A stretch of DNA of 64,000 nucleotides from assembly GCA_937934135.1 (NCBI GenBank), contig CALHAW010000025.1, positions 1 to 64,000 on the forward strand, in the 5' to 3' direction. The translations under genes and the position numbers were made by a program. This DNA is from an uncultured Alphaproteobacteria bacterium (lineage in GTDB: Bacteria; Pseudomonadota; Alphaproteobacteria; Micavibrionales; Micavibrionaceae). The notes beneath the pieces were generated by a model, which worked only from the letters and a program-made list of their open reading frames with translations, searched no databases and was not told where the DNA came from. Each line of letters opens with the position of its first letter. Position 1 is the stretch's first letter. This document shows, piece after piece, positions 22,062-34,189 of this stretch.

Positions 22062-22315
22062 ATGAAGAAGAGTTAAAAGAACTCCTATCTTCTCCCGTCA
22101 TTAAACGTTCTGTCATGATTGCAGGACATGCGAGCAGCGTGACAATTGAAGAGCCATTTTGGGACGCTTTCAAAGAGCTTGCCAAGACGCAAGGCAAATC
22201 AATCAATGTCCTCGTGACTGAGCTGGACGATACCCGCCCCCAAGATGGCAGTAGCGCCAACCTTTCAAGCGCCATAAGGCTTTATGTTCTAAAGAACCTT
22301 AAAACAACCCCTTAA
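22058..22315 (+). CDS. Ribbon-helix-helix domain protein (RHH_4-like)
   Basis: MNEEEL...[47 protein letters not shown] overlap with fumC stop. Confidence 0.75.
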
Positions 22316-25300
22316 GCAAATTATTCACGGCATCTTCAGGACTGCCCGAGCCATTTAAGATTGAATCAAGTGCATCTGCTGGTTTCTTAATTTTCTTTGG
22401 CTCTTCCTTCGGTGCAACTGGCGCGGGTGCATTATTATTGCTCGGCACAGGGGGGTGCGCAGGTGCTTTTTCTTTCTGCGGTAAGATACCAAATTTTTGT
22501 AATTTATCCGTCACATCACTGCCCAAAATATCGGGTAGTTCTTTGGCCAACTTACGCTTTAATTTATCCGCCAAATAATCTTCTAAAATATTTTTACCAA
22601 ATGTGTCTGATGGATTATCAAGCGGCCCTTTAATTTTAACTTCAAATGGTTTTAATCCTTCGACCCCTTTCAATGCAATGGTGTTATCCAAATTGATAAA
22701 CCATTTAGGAAAATTGGCAAACCCCGTTGTTGTAATGGTTGCGGCATCCCCATCCATCACCATCTTCATTACATTCGCCACACCGTTCGTAATTTTATAA
22801 TCACCAACAACAGTTTTAAAGCGCGTTTCACCGCCGCGTGTTGCTCCCTCAACCAAACTACTGACGGATGTTGCTAATTTTTCTTCCACGGCCAAACCGC
22901 GCGCCATTTTGGCAAGGTCAAATCCCTGTAACGCAATATTTGTACCATTTAAATTGGCAGAACCATTCAGGGCATTAACCAACGCATGAGCGCTTCCCCC
23001 TGCTGACACAATATCCATTTTAAAGCTAACTGTTCCACTGCTTTTTAATTTATTGCCCCCTGTCACCGCCTTGGCCAATTTTTCTAAATCAATATTATTC
23101 ATCATACTATTCAATGTCACACTCACAGGGGTAGCCGTTACGGTTGTGTCCAAATTGGCTTGTCCACCAAACACACCTGCTTTCACATTCTTGGCTGTCA
23201 TTTGTCCATTGGCAATCTTCAGATTGGTTGAAGGGTTGCTCAAAACCCAATGACCATGCGTGATCGACGTTGCCGCCAAATCAACTGCGACATCAACCGT
23301 TTTCATCCAACCTAAATCAATCGTAGATTTTGAAAATCTTGCGGCTGATGATTTTTTCTTTGCTGATGATGCAGCGCCGCCAGAAGAAGCGCCCATTAAT
23401 TGGTCAAGCGCAATACGACCGGCTTTAATTGATCCACGTACAGAAATGGGAGTCGCGCCCGTATTAATTGTTAAATTCCCACCAAAATTTGTTTGACCAA
23501 GGCGCACTTTCATTTCATTCAGGGTGTAACTCTTACCGTTGCTGCTCGCCTTTGTATAAAAGTCAACAGATTGCGCCAATCCTGGATTGCCTTTAAAGTC
23601 TGACACAACCGCCTTTAACGCATTGGATAAATTGCTATGTTTTACCCGCACGGCAAGATTATCAAATGCAGGATTTTCTAACAGGCGTGTCGCCTTACCA
23701 GACGCATCAATTTGCCCACCAAGCGCCTTAATATTTGCATCAAAATTAAGCGCGTCAATAGCGCCAGTTGCTTTCACATTTCCATCCAGTGAATTTAAAC
23801 TGTTAGGGAACTGCGCTGTATCAACTTTAAACGCCTCGGCCAATTTCTTAACATCACTGGTTTTTACCGCCGCCGTAATATCTAATCCCGTCAACGTATT
23901 CAGGTTCGCAATCGCGCCTTTCACACTCATAACTGCGCCCGCATAATTATTCACGGAGGCGTTTTTAATTGCCAATTTATTGCCTGTTAAATCACCCGTT
24001 GCACGCACCCCTTGAATGTCCGCGCCATTCAAGCGCAGTTTTTGAACACTCACATCAAAACCCAGATCAAGGGGGAGTGACAAATCTTGTAATGGTTTTA
24101 ACGCTTCTTTTGAGGACGTTTTTTGTTCTGATGTCGTTGCCGGTGCGGCTTGTTTTTTGCCTTGCGCGGCCTGAATTTTATCAAAATCTACGCTACCCGC
24201 ACTTATATCAATAATGGCTTTGGCACGCTTACCGTTTACGGCGGGTTGGTAACGCCCCCCCAATCCAATCACAAAATCATCAAGCTTAATCACACTGTCT
24301 TTTAAGGACACTGCATCAGATGAAATTTTACCATCTAATTCAAACTGCGCCGTTTTATAAAGCGCCGTTACCACCTTCGTATCCGCATCAGAGGCAAAGG
24401 CCTTTAAAAAGCTTTCTAACTGTCCCACTTGTCCATTTACTTTATAAGACGCCGTGGGATCCGCATAAATCACTTGCCCTGTTTTGGGTGATTCAGATGC
24501 CGATGCATAAGAGACATTTAACATCCCTTGTGCCTTGCCCTGCCCTGGTAATTCTAAGGTTTTAAAGCTTGCTGTCATATTTGATTTTTCTTTTTTAAAA
24601 TCAACAAACACACCCTTAATGGTTTGACCTTGTATTTTTAAACCGCCTAAATCAAATTTTACGTCCGCGCTGATGGGCATTGGTACGGTAAGTGACGTTG
24701 GAATTAACCCTTTTTCTTTTTTTGCTTTACCACTTTCTTTCAGTGCCTTTTCTGATGATGGCACAGATGATTTTTGTGACACCATAAATGGTTCTAAATT
24801 TAAAATAGATCCTGATTTAATATTACCGTTAATGGAAACAGGATTTTTTGTTTGTAAATTTTGAACAGAAAATTTTCCATTTCCAATAAAATCCCCCAAT
24901 GATAATTTCAAATTATTATAATCAATTTTATTTTGATTGGCAGTGAGCAAGCCATCTAATTTTAATGACTCATTTGCTGCCGTCGCACCAAACAACGCCG
25001 CAACTTTTTGTAAAGACGCAACATTAATATTTGTTTGCCCCTGCACTTCGAATGGTTCTGATATTGACGCAACACCGCCAAAAGAAAAATGAGCATTTGC
25101 ATCAGGTAGACTTATTTTTGTTTGGATTTTTAATTCCTCACCTGCCGCAGGTAAACGCCCAATGGCAGCCTCTATCGCCAACTTCTTCTCATCATATACA
25201 AGCGTACTATCCAGATCAAATGGGCCTTTTAGGCTGCCTGCCTTTAAAGTCACATTAACATCTTTCACGGCGTAATCTTGTTTTGTTTTGTGATCCACAA

Positions 25301-25826
25301 AATTAAGAACGCCCTTTTCAATTTTTAATTTATTGACTGAAATCGCATCAAGCGCCTGATTAGCAATCTGCCCACCTTCTGTTTTAATACCCGCTTTAAC
25401 ATCTGCAGGCGCGGCATCAGATATTTTTTTGGCTTGTGCCAATTTTTCTGTTTCCCATGAAGGTTTTCCATCGCTCAATATTTCAACATTAATCATCGGC
25501 TCAATAAGACGTACTGTATCAACGACAATTTTTTTACTAAGGAGCGGAAGCAAAGAAACACTGACTTCGGCTTGCTTCATTTGCAATAGATTTTCAAACT
25601 TTACTTTGCGTGGCGCAATAACGGTTAAATCATTAATTTTCACATGTGGCGCAGGCAAAACACCCATCGCAATATCACCATCAATTTTTACCTTTAAGCC
25701 CGTTGCATTATCAACTTGTTCAATGATTTGACCTTTATATTTATTCCAATCAACGAAGCTTGGCCCAATCAGGGCTACTCCCACTAAAAGAACAAGGACA
25801 GATAATAAAATGGCAATAAGGCGCAT
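22299..25826 (-). CDS. AsmA-family outer-membrane assembly/lipid-transport protein
   Basis: N-term LLVGVALIGPSFVDWNKYKGQIIEQVDNATGLKVKIDGDI; C-term SGTVSFKMDIVSAGGSAHALVNALNGSANLNGTNIALQGFDLAKM. Confidence 0.93.
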   Translation of the reverse strand: MRLIAILLSVLVLLVGVALIGPSFVDWNKYKGQIIEQVDNATGLKVKIDGDIAMGVLPAPHVKINDLTVIAPRKVKFENLLQMKQAEVSVSLLPLLSKKIVVDTVRLIEPMINVEILSDGKPSWETEKLAQAKKISDAAPADVKAGIKTEGGQIANQALDAISVNKLKIEKGVLNFVDHKTKQDYAVKDVNVTLKAGSLKGPFDLDSTLVYDEKKLAIEAAIGRLPAAGEELKIQTKISLPDANAHFSFGGVASISEPFEVQGQTNINVASLQKVAALFGATAANESLKLDGLLTANQNKIDYNNLKLSLGDFIGNGKFSVQNLQTKNPVSINGNIKSGSILNLEPFMVSQKSSVPSSEKALKESGKAKKEKGLIPTSLTVPMPISADVKFDLGGLKIQGQTIKGVFVDFKKEKSNMTASFKTLELPGQGKAQGMLNVSYASASESPKTGQVIYADPTASYKVNGQVGQLESFLKAFASDADTKVVTALYKTAQFELDGKISSDAVSLKDSVIKLDDFVIGLGGRYQPAVNGKRAKAIIDISAGSVDFDKIQAAQGKKQAAPATTSEQKTSSKEALKPLQDLSLPLDLGFDVSVQKLRLNGADIQGVRATGDLTGNKLAIKNASVNNYAGAVMSVKGAIANLNTLTGLDITAAVKTSDVKKLAEAFKVDTAQFPNSLNSLDGNVKATGAIDALNFDANIKALGGQIDASGKATRLLENPAFDNLAVRVKHSNLSNALKAVVSDFKGNPGLAQSVDFYTKASSNGKSYTLNEMKVRLGQTNFGGNLTINTGATPISVRGSIKAGRIALDQLMGASSGGAASSAKKKSSAARFSKSTIDLGWMKTVDVAVDLAATSITHGHWVLSNPSTNLKIANGQMTAKNVKAGVFGGQANLDTTVTATPVSVTLNSMMNNIDLEKLAKAVTGGNKLKSSGTVSFKMDIVSAGGSAHALVNALNGSANLNGTNIALQGFDLAKMARGLAVEEKLATSVSSLVEGATRGGETRFKTVVGDYKITNGVANVMKMVMDGDAATITTTGFANFPKWFINLDNTIALKGVEGLKPFEVKIKGPLDNPSDTFGKNILEDYLADKLKRKLAKELPDILGSDVTDKLQKFGILPQKEKAPAHPPVPSNNNAPAPVAPKEEPKKIKKPADALDSILNGSGSPEDAVNNLLKGLF

Positions 25827-25939
25827 ATGTTTTCTCCAAAACGGTCAGTATTTTAAATATGGTTTTGTTATACGGGAAAAAATGGCGTACTTCAACGTAT
25901 CAAGAATGGCGATAAAATGGCAGTTTTTAAGAAAACCGC

Positions 25940-28900
25940 CTACAACCTATCTGCAATCCGGTCACGTAGATCAATCGCAAGGTCAAGATTATCTGTATTG
26001 GTGCTATGCGCTATTGCCAAGAGATTTTGGTCTTTGGCGGCAAAAATTACCGAAGACGCGGTATTCGTACTGCCATCAACACATACAATATCATAAGTAC
26101 GGCGGGCGGCGTTGGCACGCGGCGTTTCAGATGATGCAAAATCCCCCTGACAGCGTTTCTTCGCCGTACTAATATATTGCTGAACGAATTGATCAATCGA
26201 TCCCCCGCGTTGCGTAGGCACAATTTGCGCTGTTCCTGCAATATTACCCGCCTGCCAGCGATACTGCCCATTTGGCGCAGCGCTGATGGAGGAAGACTGC
26301 ACACCTGCCTGGCGTAGCAAATTGCGTAAATCAACAGGCTCTTTTCTAACCACCTGTATGGGCGCTGGACGGTCCTGCACAACGGGCGGTTGTACACGTA
26401 TTTGTGGTACAGCAACAGGAGCAGGCGTAAGCGCTTCGCGGATAACGGGTGCTGGTGGCGCGGCCATCGCCGTGCTTAATTTTTGTGGCGCAGGCATTCT
26501 GGGTGCAACTTTCGGTGTAACACTGGGCGAAGCATTGGGTGCCGTATTGGATATCACTCTGGGCGCAGGGGAAATTCCCGCTACATCAAGGCGCGCCAGT
26601 GATCCATCGTAACGATCTTGCGCACGCGCTCTTCCCATTGCTTCCAACTGTTTTTCTGCCGCCAATAGCTTAGATTCTAATTCTACCAAACGGCGACGCT
26701 GTTGCTTATCGGTCACGGCAGGATCAAACAGCATTTGTTCCAACTGGACTTTTTCTGCGCGGTGTCCCGTGCGTTGTTGTTCTAATAACATACCAAGGCG
26801 TCTGATTTCCCGCTCTGCTTCGTTATAACGGTGCGTTGCTTTTTCTAAATCCCAATCACCAGAGGAATTGTTGGTTTTTGATTTAGCGCCTATATTATTT
26901 TGTGCTTCGCGCATGGATTCTATTTCACGCGATAGCGTTAAATTATCCGCCTTGGCAAGTTCCAGCTGTTTTTCAAACATACGGATTTTATCAAAGGCAA
27001 CATTGCCCGCATCAACACGCGCCCCATCAATTTGGCTATTGGCTTTTTTGCGTTCTTGCGCCAAACGTTCATTATCGGCGCGTAAGTTGGCAATTTCCAT
27101 ACGCATTTTCTCCAGCTCTTTTTCTGCCTTCGGAGACAACGCATCGAAAGAATCCATTTTCTTTTCCTGCGCGCCTAATGATGAGACCAGCTTTTTATTT
27201 TCTGCGCGCAACATCGCAATCTCTGCCGTCATTTCAGGCGATACAAATGGTTTTACTTCTGATTTTTCTTTTATCTGTGCTTCCAATTTTGCAATTTGCG
27301 CGCGCAACGATTTTACTTCTGCAGGATCGGCCTTTGGCGCTTGTATAGCTGGTACGGGTTTAACCGGTACGGCAGTGGGCATGGATGTGACTGTTGGCGG
27401 CGCAATCGCTGTGCGTTCTGGTTTCTTTGTCTCCGCCCTTAACGCTTCATTTAAACGCTTATTTTCTTCTTTAATACGTACCAATTCGTCTTGCTGCTTT
27501 TTCTCAACTGTTTGGTTCCAAAGACGTGGTTTATTGCGTGGAATATTTTCAGGCGCATTACTGATAATAATTTGCTCCCGCTTTGAAACACGACGCGACG
27601 CATCAATGACGGGCGCTTTCGGTGCAACATCTGCTCCTTCTACATCTGCCAAAGACGCCACAACAGCTTTCTTACTTTTAATTACCTCAGGCTTAGGTAT
27701 GGCAGGCGTGACCACCTTTTTTTCAGAAATAGAAGGCGCTGTTTTAGATTCTATATCTGGCGCTACTACTTTCTTAATCTCCTCTTTCCTACCCACAATA
27801 ATAGGATCAGGCGTTACAATAGCTTCTGGCGTTATAATTGATTTTGGCTTTGCAATAGATTGAGGTTGGAACGCTATAATAGGTTGCGATGGCGCAGGCG
27901 ACTTTGACTCAATAACATTACTTTTCACAATTTCAGGCTTCGGTACAGCCGCCGCTACACTCTTTGAGGGGGCGGGCCTTGAGGGGATAGGAAAATCTAA
28001 TGATGGCGTGCTTAAAGATGATGCGCTTAAGGATGGAACACTTGCAGAAGGAAGCGTCGGACGCTCCCTTAAACTAGATGGCAAAACAACACCATTTGTG
28101 CTGACTTTGGATGCGGGTTCAATCTTTGAAACAGCATTGCGCGATGTCACATTAGACAATGTATTTTGCGCCACTTTTTGTGGCGGTAACGGTGTATTAT
28201 CAATCGCATTTTTTACGGCAACTGCTTTTTGCGGCGCACTCACAACTTTAGGCACAGTGGTGGCAGCACGCTCAATAATCGGCGCGGGCGCCGCAATCGT
28301 GCGCTCTACCATCACAGGGGGCGGCGTTTCAATCGCTGTTACTGTTTTTTGTAGGTTGGCATCTTTGATGGGGGCGGACATAAAGGCCGGTGGCTTAATA
28401 TCAGAAGCCACATCTGCCATGGCGCGCTCTACCTTTACGGGTTTTTCAATCTTAGATTGGATTACATTCTTAGCCGCGCTCTGCGCTTGAGGGGCAGTCA
28501 CAGGGCTGGAGTCAATTTTTTGTGGCGTAATAGGCACAGTTATTTTTGGTGCATCCGCAACCTTCATAGGCGCTCCGTCATTCAAATTCGCCATACACTG
28601 ATTAAGCTGTGCTTCGCCTTCGTGATAATCCGTTAAATTAAACAGATAATTTTGCCCATCAATTTGCGCTTTTAATTCTTTCGATTCATTAATGGATTTA
28701 AAAAAGCCATCATCAAAACCAAGCCGCACCACCAGCGCCCGTTGTGATGCAGGGCGTAATTGATAGGCACGCACCTGCCCTGGACCGGGTTGTAATGCAA
28801 CTTTATATGACTTACCCGTATCTAAACCTGCATTTTCAAAATCAATCGCCAGCGAATATTCTTTTTTCGCACTTTTGCCCAATGTCAAAACCAAACCCTG

Positions 28901-29098
28901 ATCATAAGCACGTGATAACGCACAATAGCTTTGCGCGCCCCGCCCTATTTGATTAATACCCCACGCATTAACGGGGTTTAAGGCATTAACACCAGGCTGC
29001 GCAACTGCAGGAGCAACCCCATAACTGCCGATAAGAATACCTGCAATGAGGAAGGAAGAAAGGGCTGTCGTAGAAATAATACGTTTCATGTTATTCAA
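25940..29098 (-). CDS. Large secreted Pro/Ala-rich coiled-coil protein; N-terminal domain paralogous to upstream gene
   Basis: Signal peptide; N-domain ...SYCALSRAYDQGLVLTLG...SLAIDF...FNLTDYHEGEAQLNQCM; long heptad-rich middle; C-terminal globular domain ending DLAIDLRDRIADRL. Confidence 0.75.
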   Translation of the reverse strand: MNNMKRIISTTALSSFLIAGILIGSYGVAPAVAQPGVNALNPVNAWGINQIGRGAQSYCALSRAYDQGLVLTLGKSAKKEYSLAIDFENAGLDTGKSYKVALQPGPGQVRAYQLRPASQRALVVRLGFDDGFFKSINESKELKAQIDGQNYLFNLTDYHEGEAQLNQCMANLNDGAPMKVADAPKITVPITPQKIDSSPVTAPQAQSAAKNVIQSKIEKPVKVERAMADVASDIKPPAFMSAPIKDANLQKTVTAIETPPPVMVERTIAAPAPIIERAATTVPKVVSAPQKAVAVKNAIDNTPLPPQKVAQNTLSNVTSRNAVSKIEPASKVSTNGVVLPSSLRERPTLPSASVPSLSASSLSTPSLDFPIPSRPAPSKSVAAAVPKPEIVKSNVIESKSPAPSQPIIAFQPQSIAKPKSIITPEAIVTPDPIIVGRKEEIKKVVAPDIESKTAPSISEKKVVTPAIPKPEVIKSKKAVVASLADVEGADVAPKAPVIDASRRVSKREQIIISNAPENIPRNKPRLWNQTVEKKQQDELVRIKEENKRLNEALRAETKKPERTAIAPPTVTSMPTAVPVKPVPAIQAPKADPAEVKSLRAQIAKLEAQIKEKSEVKPFVSPEMTAEIAMLRAENKKLVSSLGAQEKKMDSFDALSPKAEKELEKMRMEIANLRADNERLAQERKKANSQIDGARVDAGNVAFDKIRMFEKQLELAKADNLTLSREIESMREAQNNIGAKSKTNNSSGDWDLEKATHRYNEAEREIRRLGMLLEQQRTGHRAEKVQLEQMLFDPAVTDKQQRRRLVELESKLLAAEKQLEAMGRARAQDRYDGSLARLDVAGISPAPRVISNTAPNASPSVTPKVAPRMPAPQKLSTAMAAPPAPVIREALTPAPVAVPQIRVQPPVVQDRPAPIQVVRKEPVDLRNLLRQAGVQSSSISAAPNGQYRWQAGNIAGTAQIVPTQRGGSIDQFVQQYISTAKKRCQGDFASSETPRANAARRTYDIVCVDGSTNTASSVIFAAKDQNLLAIAHSTNTDNLDLAIDLRDRIADRL

Positions 29099-30713
29099 CA
29101 GTCAAAAGCTTATTACCTGAGGATGGATCGACGTTAAATGCCGCCGCTGGGCGTATTGTATCATCCGCATACTGATTGAGCAATTCTTGTAACGCTTGCG
29201 TGTAATCGCCATTATTTTGGACAGGCTCTTTCACTTTAAACTCACGCCCTGCTTTCCACAAAAACGCTGTACCATCTTTTACAGACCAACTTTGCAAAGT
29301 TTCCCGAAGACTCGCCCCGCGCGCGGCAATCCATTTTGACCCTCCCAGACCCCCTTCCCACGCCGCACCTGATGCGTGCGATATAGAATGTGTTGCCTGT
29401 GTTGGTTGTCTCATATCTGCGGCCAATCCCATGGCGGTTGCATTTTGCGCCATTAAGGTCTGCACCGCTTGTTCAAACGATCCTATCACATTGACGTTAC
29501 TAGCTACGCTTCCATTATTTGACGCTTCCCATTGTAAATCAACATCTGCGCGTGAAGCCCAGCGCTCTAAGACTGCGCGCATATCCTCACCCGCTTGTGC
29601 GCTCCAGCTCTCTGGCGTGGCGCGTAACGGCGTGGGCGCTTTGTTGGCCGTCATTTGGCCAATCGGCATGTTTGATGGTGTTGGGATTGTAATATCTTGC
29701 GCTGCCGCCGCTCTGGTGCTGGGGCTTGCCACACGGATACGCGGCGCCGATTGATCATCTTCGATCGCGCGGCTCACCCGCGCGCCCCTTAATCCAACAG
29801 GGGACGGTAAAGGCTGGTTTACCTCCGGAATATCCAGCTTTCTTAGGCGTGTTGGCGCTTGTGGCGTTGCTTGTGGAACAGATTGTACAATTTCTGGGTC
29901 GTGGACACGCGGTATCCGCACTTCTGGTGTTTGAACGAGGGGTAACACATGCCCTGCATCTCCGCCAATACGTGGCTCGCGCATTGATTTTGTCGTTTCT
30001 GACGCGGCAACACGCGGACTATTATCAACTGACGTACCACCACCTATCACAGGGCGCGATAAACGTGGACGGGATAAATTCGTATCAGAATATACTTCTG
30101 GTGCAGCTTGCGATGATTGAATACGGTTACGTGCCATACTGTCTGGTAAGCTAGATTTTGGTATAACCGCAGTACGCAAACCCGTTGTTCCCGTAAAACA
30201 CGCATCAAGGCGCGCCGCGCCTTCACTGATATTACCCAGATTAAACGCCATACTGTTTCCTTCAACCTCAAGCCGTAGGACGCGGGTTTTCAGAAGTTGC
30301 GGGTAAATATTCCCCAGCGTTTCTAAATTAAATAATAACACACTGTCGGAAAAGGCCGTCGCCTGGACATCGCGTGATACCGCCGCATCAAAATGGACGC
30401 GAGCGTTATATTCTTGTCCTGTGATGAAAATCGGTTGGCGGAAATCCGCCGCCATAGACAATATACGCTTTCCCCCACCTGCAAAACGCAGGATAAAACC
30501 GTTATCGTATGTTGCCTTCATCACGCAAGGGAGCTTCAACGCTTCTAACCCGCGTAACGTTCCCATGTTTGTTGGTTTAATCTCCCACTCTGACGCAGGC
30601 ATAAACTGTGGAATGCCCGCCCGCGTGCTTTGCGCATAAGAAGCTGTAATCGTTGAAGAAAACAACAAAGCGGTCAGACAAACATTTAAGCAAAGAAAAA
30701 CAGCTATTCTCAC
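29091..30713 (-). CDS. Secreted envelope protein with paralogous N-domain and two TcpQ-C-like repeats
   Basis: Signal peptide; LPCVMKATYDNGFILRFAGG...; repeats SWSAQAGEDMRAVLERWASRADVDLQWEA and KWIAARGASLRETLQSWSVKDGTAFLWKAG each followed by (F/Y)xxAxxxL. Confidence 0.75.
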   Translation of the reverse strand: MRIAVFLCLNVCLTALLFSSTITASYAQSTRAGIPQFMPASEWEIKPTNMGTLRGLEALKLPCVMKATYDNGFILRFAGGGKRILSMAADFRQPIFITGQEYNARVHFDAAVSRDVQATAFSDSVLLFNLETLGNIYPQLLKTRVLRLEVEGNSMAFNLGNISEGAARLDACFTGTTGLRTAVIPKSSLPDSMARNRIQSSQAAPEVYSDTNLSRPRLSRPVIGGGTSVDNSPRVAASETTKSMREPRIGGDAGHVLPLVQTPEVRIPRVHDPEIVQSVPQATPQAPTRLRKLDIPEVNQPLPSPVGLRGARVSRAIEDDQSAPRIRVASPSTRAAAAQDITIPTPSNMPIGQMTANKAPTPLRATPESWSAQAGEDMRAVLERWASRADVDLQWEASNNGSVASNVNVIGSFEQAVQTLMAQNATAMGLAADMRQPTQATHSISHASGAAWEGGLGGSKWIAARGASLRETLQSWSVKDGTAFLWKAGREFKVKEPVQNNGDYTQALQELLNQYADDTIRPAAAFNVDPSSGNKLLTVE

Positions 30714-30819: not shown

Positions 30820-31933
30820 TTAACTTTCCTGGCTATCCTCCAAACGATGCGCTAGTGCCGCCTCTAGGAACGGATCTAGCTTTCCATCAAGAACGCCTTG
30901 GCTATCCGTTGTTTCGCAGGCGGTGCGTTGATCTTTTACCATTTGATACGGATGTAACACATAAGAGCGGATTGCATGCCCCCATCCAATATCACTCTTT
31001 TCGCTATGCGCGTCTGATGCGGCATCTTCGCGGCGTTGAATTTCGGCTTCATACAGGCGGGCTTTTAACATGCTCATCGCCGTATCTTTATTTTTATGCT
31101 GTGATCGCTCGTTCTGACAGGCCACCACAATGCCCGATGGTTCATGCGTAATACGAACGGCTGAATCCGTTGTATTAACGTGTTGACCGCCACTTCCGCT
31201 TGAACGATACGTATCGATACGTAAATCTTTCTCTTCAATTTCAATGTCGATACTGTCATCAATCACAGGAGAGACAGAAACAGAGGCAAAACTGGTATGA
31301 CGGCGTGCATTTGAATCATAGGGGGATATCCGTACGAGCCGATGCACCCCTGTTTCGGTTTTAATCCACCCATAAGCCATATCACCAGAAATTTGGATCG
31401 TCGCGGACTTAATTCCCGCCTCTTCCCCATCACTGCGGTCTAAAACGGTAGCCTTAAAACCGCGTTTCTCCGCCCAGCGCAAATACATCCGCAAGATCAT
31501 TTCCGCCCAATCTTGAGCTTCTGTGCCGCCTGCACCAGAATTAACCTCGAGGAACGCATCATTACCATCCGCCTCACCCGACAGCATGCTTTCCAGTTGG
31601 CGCTTATCAAGGTCGATTTTAATGGCTTGAAGGGCGGTTTCAGATTCAGCGACGATACTGTCATCGCCCTCTGCCTCCCCCATTTCGATCATCTCACTAT
31701 GATCACTAATATCAGTTTCTATTTGTCGAACGGCGCCAATCTGATCTTCGAGGCGGTTACGCTCACGCATGATGGCTTGCGCCTTTTCGGAATCATTCCA
31801 AAGATCAGGATCTTCCACCAGCGCATTCAGCTCATCCAGCCGCTTAACCGCCACATCCCAGTCAAAGATGCCTCCTCAGCAACGCTAAGGCGCTCCTAAT
31901 ATCATCAATAAGGGACTGTGTTTCTGCTTTCAT
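30820..31933 (-). CDS. prfB: Peptide chain release factor 2, with programmed +1 frameshift at in-frame TGA (31864-31862)
   Basis: GGQHVNTTDSAVRITH, VHRLVRISPYDSNARRHTSFASV; upstream frame MKAETQSLIDDIRSALALLRRHL-TGA with AGGAGG CAT CTT TGA C; downstream frame DWDVAVKRLDEL. Confidence 0.95.
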
Positions 31934-33277: not shown

Positions 33278-34189
33278 ATGAAAAATACAATCTTACGTCC
33301 ACTTATGCTGACGGCCATTATTGCCCTTGTTGCTGCTTGTTCACCAAAGAAATTTGATGAAGTAAAAGCCTTAAACGATGCAAGCGGTTCAGGTAACGCC
33401 TTTACACAGGCTCTCACAACAGAATACAGATCATTCGTAAACAGCGAACTAGATTCATATGAAGATCACGCAGATGCGCTTCATTTTTCTAGAAAAGGAT
33501 TGGCCGCCGCCCGTGGTGACATGGTTATGGCCGAAGCCGTCAGTGATTGGAATCTTCACGCAGGTCATGCAGAAGAATTAATTGTTGCCCGCGCCCGCAT
33601 GGTTGACGTGTTTGCCCGTGGCGCGCGTGAAACACAACCACAGCTTTCTGCCGTAACCCAAGCAAGATTTGATTGCTGGATTGAAGAGCAAGAAGAGAAT
33701 TTCCAAGACAATAACATCGGCGTCTGTAAATCACAGTTCTTTGATGCGTTGGCACAATTAGAAGCGTCTATCCCTGCCGCCGCACCAGCGCCTGAGCCTG
33801 TTGCAATCGTCGATAATGGTGATCTTGGCATTGACCCATCACAACCAATGGCCGTTGAAAATGCCAAATACATCGTGTTCTTTGACTTTGACCAAAGCTC
33901 ATTAAATGCTGGTGCAAACAGCATTCTTGATGCCGCAGCGGAAGAAGCAAAATCGCGCAACTTGAACTCAATCTCCGTTGTTGGACATACTGATACATCA
34001 GGATCACGGTCTTACAACCAGACACTTTCAATGAAACGTGCTGAAGCAGTACGTTCAGGTCTGGCACAACGCGGCGTTAACGCCAGCATCATTCAAACAC
34101 AAAACCGTGGTGAGAGTGAGTTGCTCGTTGATACAGCCGACGGTGTTCGTGAGCCAGCAAATAGACGCGGTGAAATTACGTTTCAGTAA
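33278..34189 (+). CDS. OmpA-family lipoprotein
   Basis: Lipobox LVAAC; C-terminal IVFFDFDQSSLNAGANSIL...SVVGHTDTSGSRSYNQTLSMKRAEAVRSGLAQRGV...NRRGEITF. Confidence 0.93.
   Translation: MKNTILRPLMLTAIIALVAACSPKKFDEVKALNDASGSGNAFTQALTTEYRSFVNSELDSYEDHADALHFSRKGLAAARGDMVMAEAVSDWNLHAGHAEELIVARARMVDVFARGARETQPQLSAVTQARFDCWIEEQEENFQDNNIGVCKSQFFDALAQLEASIPAAAPAPEPVAIVDNGDLGIDPSQPMAVENAKYIVFFDFDQSSLNAGANSILDAAAEEAKSRNLNSISVVGHTDTSGSRSYNQTLSMKRAEAVRSGLAQRGVNASIIQTQNRGESELLVDTADGVREPANRRGEITFQ

Follow-up and report, generated by a model that had tools for sequence, protein, structure and literature searches.

Two neighbouring genes on the minus strand of contig 25 of a 1.72-Mb genome, which we place in the family of Micavibrio aeruginosavorus, raise a simple question: do the proteins they encode, which begin with similar domains and end in different ones, work together, and if so, on what? 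The window analysed here is a 64,000-nucleotide part of that contig. We refer to gene 29091-30713 as P1 and to gene 25940-29089 (or 29098, depending on its start) as P2. The reading that we favour, to which we give about an even chance, is that both are exported through Sec, are soluble in the periplasm and belong to one modular adaptor complex whose members share a head; for that complex we infer a common partner and a bridging role. The genes, their starts and their neighbours are as follows.

29091..30713, minus strand: P1 gene, 540 aa; GTG start after GGGAG; signal peptide, N-domain, Pro-rich linker and two TcpQ domains
30630..30713, minus strand: probable Sec signal peptide of P1, ending ..ASYA-Q, without lipobox (sequence, by eye)
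25940..29089, minus strand: P2 gene, 1049 aa; probable ATG start
29098, minus strand: alternative TTG start of P2, giving 1052 aa; would create an 8-bp overlap with P1
28997..29089, minus strand: probable Sec signal peptide of P2, ending ..AVA-Q (sequence, by eye)
30820..31854, minus strand: prfB, conserved upstream neighbour
22299..25826, minus strand: AsmA-family gene (PF05170), neighbour; in relatives PHB genes usually intervene

The original prediction had described two overlapping, translationally coupled ORFs that encode secreted proteins, and both ORFs are present at the positions that it gave. The 8-bp overlap, by contrast, exists only if the TTG start is used; with the ATG three codons on, which agrees with the MK/MR start of most homologues, the junction reads TAA-C-ATG and leaves a 1-nt gap. 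In relatives, moreover, P1 and P2 lie between about 9 and 163 nt apart, a figure that shifts with the start assumed, and translational coupling as a conserved trait is therefore unsupported. Both proteins look exported, with signal peptides judged by eye, and from these sequences we infer a periplasmic location.

Conservation of the two genes together, which had been named as a check, is borne out: they sit together beside prfB in most lineages read. The AsmA-family gene that was said to follow P2 on the same strand is also there (PF05170, E=1e-41), as a loose neighbour, with PHB genes in between in most relatives. Many other genera have PHB/acetyl-CoA acetyltransferase genes between P2 and AsmA; the window lacks them (22299-25940), which brings AsmA next to P2. 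Most relatives read also retain, in the neighbourhood of prfB-P1-P2, an OmpA-family lipoprotein gene (window 33278-34189).

The strongest link between the two proteins is their N-terminal domain, for which the coordinates are as follows.

30183..30620, minus strand: P1 N-domain; same family as the P2 N-domain; invariant W, C, C
28580..28990, minus strand: P2 N-domain; AlphaFold2 pLDDT 94.2; predicted MotY-N/IalB-like fold

That these domains are paralogous had been proposed from an alignment by eye, and profile search, shuffles and HHalign all bear the homology out. Specifically, a P1 query retrieves P2 from the same genome at 34 bits, and a P2-type profile finds P1 of the window with E=7.7e-23; this profile scores the real P1 domain at 68.7 bits, against 8.4 for the top one of 10,000 shuffles. 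HHalign of the P1 against the P2 N-domain, the profile comparison that the original prediction had suggested, gives a probability of 99.6% over 152 columns. The two Cys noticed at matching positions are invariant, together with one Trp, in 36/36 and 53/53 sequences, and would probably form a disulfide bond in the head. Neither the N-domain nor the C-terminal domain of P2 (C-domain) is covered by a Pfam or NCBIfam family, so that the description of the module as undescribed fits, and neither has a relative among PDB sequences by sequence-profile search.

Structure prediction suggests a fold for the head. The N-domain model, built from alignments made here (pTM 0.88), was compared with the PDB by Foldseek, and its best matches are the LPHT ring (8z5n, E=1.1e-3, TM 0.65) and MotY (2zf8, E=2.5e-3, TM 0.57), with IalB (invasion associated locus B; 3dtd, E=5.5e-3, TM 0.60-0.63 both ways) also matched. 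The E-values are weak (about 1e-3 to 5e-3), yet the TM scores of 0.57-0.65 are good and the probability is 1.00; the model points to a MotY-N/IalB-like fold. There are differences from both proteins. The predicted fold of the P2 N-domain resembles the N-terminal domain of MotY at 9-12% identity, but MotY has a C-terminal OmpA-like peptidoglycan-binding domain, for which a Pfam search gave no match in P1 or P2. IalB and the N-domain proteins are all exported proteins of alphaproteobacteria, but in P1 and P2 the domain belongs to long multi-domain proteins, and Pfam IalB has no match at E<=1 among the window proteins and ten relatives. Against a viral structure library, the N-domain matched phage proteins without a name and a single phage IalB.

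Behind the head, P1 continues as follows.

29619..30173, minus strand: P1 Pro-rich linker
29439..29615, minus strand: P1 TcpQ domain repeat 1 (PF10671)
29094..29339, minus strand: P1 TcpQ domain repeat 2 (PF10671)

The TcpQ-C-like repeats that had been noted match PF10671 in two stretches with E=4.7e-21, at 75.1 bits against a curated cut-off of 27. P1 therefore ends in two domains of the family of toxin co-regulated pilus protein Q, but here the two repeats stand behind a large N-domain and a linker. In addition, TcpQ of type IVb pili is encoded with pilin, secretin and pilus ATPase genes and P1 is not; there are no pilus or secretin genes at the P1/P2 locus, where the neighbours are prfB, P2 and AsmA. 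Elsewhere, a TcpQ gene lies within an apparent type IVb pilus cluster (L090, genome G064).

P2 is built differently behind its head, and gives nothing significant against Pfam.

27317..28558, minus strand: P2 Pro/Ala/Ser-rich linker, about 414 aa (residues 181-594)
26570..27316, minus strand: P2 long helical segment, about 250 aa, few prolines (residues about 595-843)
26609..26860, minus strand: helical motif NWxLExAxxRYNEAERxIxRLG...EKxELExMLFDP; one copy per genome, on P2 or P3
25943..26338, minus strand: P2 C-terminal domain, two invariant Cys; AlphaFold2 pLDDT 91.7; predicted DcrB/PsbP (Mog1)-like fold

The roughly 400-residue coiled coil that P2 was thought to contain comes down to about 250 helical residues behind the linker. 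Because heptad periodicity is weak in a simple test, except at about 677-732, ‘long helix’ is a safer term than ‘coiled coil’. The model of the C-terminal globular domain, again from alignments built here (pTM 0.82), matches DcrB in the PDB with E=1.1e-5, probability 1.00 and TM 0.52; PsbP and LpqN are also among the matches. This supports a predicted DcrB/PsbP/Mog1-like fold (6e8a, 2vu4; TM about 0.5, 14% identity), which in P2 is fused behind a linker and a long helix and has a conserved Cys pair of its own.

How widely are these parts distributed? Counting a match to any part, P1 and P2 queries each find matches in 101/104 family genomes. With the N-domain profile, 137/142 genomes of the Micavibrio order give a match, as do all 98 of its 98 high-quality genomes (at least 90% complete, at most 5% contaminated). 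In a sample of the class the N-domain occurs in 40/387 genomes, five from the window’s family and 35 others; outside the order this is 35/382 Alphaproteobacteria genomes, or about 9%. Half of the outside-order loci read (7/14) encode a single protein of 374-502 aa with both N- and C-domains and without TcpQ, and at two of them (L173, L181) a PHB-type gene lies, by eye, near this [N+C] gene, as in the order. Family f6 has two adjacent N-domain genes, each still with a C-domain, one of which is weakly matched.

The behaviour of the helical motif bears on whether the parts work together. Of the 104 family genomes, 97 have the motif: 96 give exactly one match, and G006 gives two pieces in two reading frames. 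The other seven have none. Outside the family it occurs only in G121, twice within one gene. The motif and the C-domain are on one gene in 54 genomes and on separate genes in 25, and the C-domain is undetected in 18, a split made from contig, strand and distance in which incomplete genomes could swell the 25 and the 18. The alternative carrier, P3, is a separate N-domain gene with the motif. At the P3 loci read, the P3 N-domain is nearest the P1 type, P2 is without the motif, and P1 is absent or without its N-domain. In lineages such as g29 and g32, P2 retains the motif though P1 has no N-domain, and thus module exchange is not the sole route. Near P3 (L073, L080, L082, L085 and similar loci) lies a 596-aa gene whose recurring start is of the MPVYSPPLENIRFILHDVL type, by eye probably an acyl-CoA dehydrogenase.

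That a module present once per genome has changed places between two carrier genes is a useful sign of parts working together, and it indirectly supports the proposed partner complex. What speaks against a fixed pair is that in several lineages P2 persists while P1 is absent or headless, so that pairing of the P1 and P2 heads is not universal.

Among specific alternatives, the leading one is that P1 and P2 are accessories of a Dot/Icm-type system (T4BSS), in which TcpQ would dock at the outer-membrane ring of DotC and DotD and P2 would form a bridge to further components; we consider this unlikely. DotC occurs in 99/104 family genomes and 133/142 genomes of the order, nearly always as a single copy, and the window’s genome has DotC (single copy) and DotD. 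Beside DotC are DotD, a DotB-like ATPase, an SLT protein, a short IcmT-like protein (our reading; no Pfam match) and an STN-domain protein that is exported and has N0-type domains, as P1 does, with a P1-like TcpQ domain in 7/14 copies. Outside the order, the N-domain is found in 3/9 DotC-positive genomes, compared with 35/382 overall. However, P1 and P2 are not encoded in the dot/icm cluster, which in the window’s genome is on another contig (contig 17, G000:C17), and no N-domain is seen in the STN gene product. Both systems are near-universal in the order, and co-occurrence there says little, whereas outside it 32/35 N-domain genomes are without DotC. Three near-complete genomes, G055 (99% complete), G098 (100%) and G123 (99%), keep N-domain genes while lacking both DotC and DotD, although dotD adjoins dotC and one assembly gap in each could account for the absence; if the losses are real, these genomes weaken a strict T4BSS dependence. 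A recent move of TcpQ from the dot-cluster gene to P1 is unsupported: in a tree, a weak one of a short domain, P1 repeat 1 and P1 repeat 2 each stand in a group apart, and most TcpQ domains of the dot cluster stand in another. TcpQ counts in P1 and in the dot-cluster gene are merely loosely complementary across lineages, and in family f6 the TcpQ copies listed are mostly about 3 kb from DotC.

Other readings start from the individual folds. One of them, in which the proteins keep lipids or the envelope in balance and AsmA perhaps takes part, would build on the DcrB-like C-domain and the IalB-like head and treat TcpQ as a side development. AsmA is nearby in many family loci, DcrB and LpqN are among the C-domain matches and the [N+C] form outside the order lacks TcpQ, but AsmA is usually several genes off with PHB genes between, and the DcrB/PsbP-like fold serves many unrelated functions; we regard this role as improbable. 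A MotY/T-ring-like collar built from the N-domain proteins around the single polar flagellar motor appears quite improbable, despite the rank of MotY and the LPHT ring among the structural matches and the one polar flagellum of Micavibrio (PMC3189940). P1 and P2 are without the OmpA/peptidoglycan-binding domain of MotY, the match to IalB is comparable, and flgK and flgL were not found beside the dot cluster of the window’s genome (L144), which may mean that flagella are lost or the genes moved. We also know of no flagellar role for the TcpQ domain. Finally, P1 and P2 could simply lie side by side, both periplasmic and alike in the head but without a shared task, as their unconserved spacing and the loss of P1 in several lineages might suggest. 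Against this stands the exchange of the module between carrier genes while its copy number stays the same, and we hold such a lack of joint function to be very improbable.

Returning to the adaptor complex, we predict that the ancestor of the Micavibrio order carried an [N + DcrB/PsbP-like] gene that was duplicated there in tandem. Docking on a common periplasmic partner, or dimerisation, would be the task of the MotY-N/IalB-like head, and the linkers and long helix would hold the ends of P1 and P2 at a distance, with the TcpQ (N0/STN-like) domains of P1 sitting on an outer-membrane ring and the DcrB/PsbP-like domain contacting a lipid, a peptide or a membrane protein. The system might then serve as a bridge or assembly adaptor of an envelope machine, although the domains could also act separately. 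A bolder version, which we consider decidedly unlikely, is that P1 and P2 form part of a periplasmic machine peculiar to the lineage of predatory Micavibrio relatives, in which tandem-duplicated IalB/MotY-like heads with TcpQ ring-docking and DcrB-like ends couple the Dot/Icm-type system to the envelope during prey attachment. Virtually all good genomes of this order, which includes obligate epibiotic predators, have the N-domain family. Few molecular parts of Micavibrio predation are known, and conserved large exported proteins with domains of a ring-docking type are concrete targets.

The dot cluster has features of its own. DotC, DotD, the DotB-like ATPase and the IcmT-like gene form a cluster conserved across the order (G038 C1:2442559-2443209; L148 in G037; L144 in the window genome, contig 17). 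In an alignment of its STN gene (L144:11777-12673) with relatives (A5), TcpQ is missing from the copies of the window’s genus. In the congeners G007 and G010 (L145, L146), flgK and flgL adjoin the cluster.
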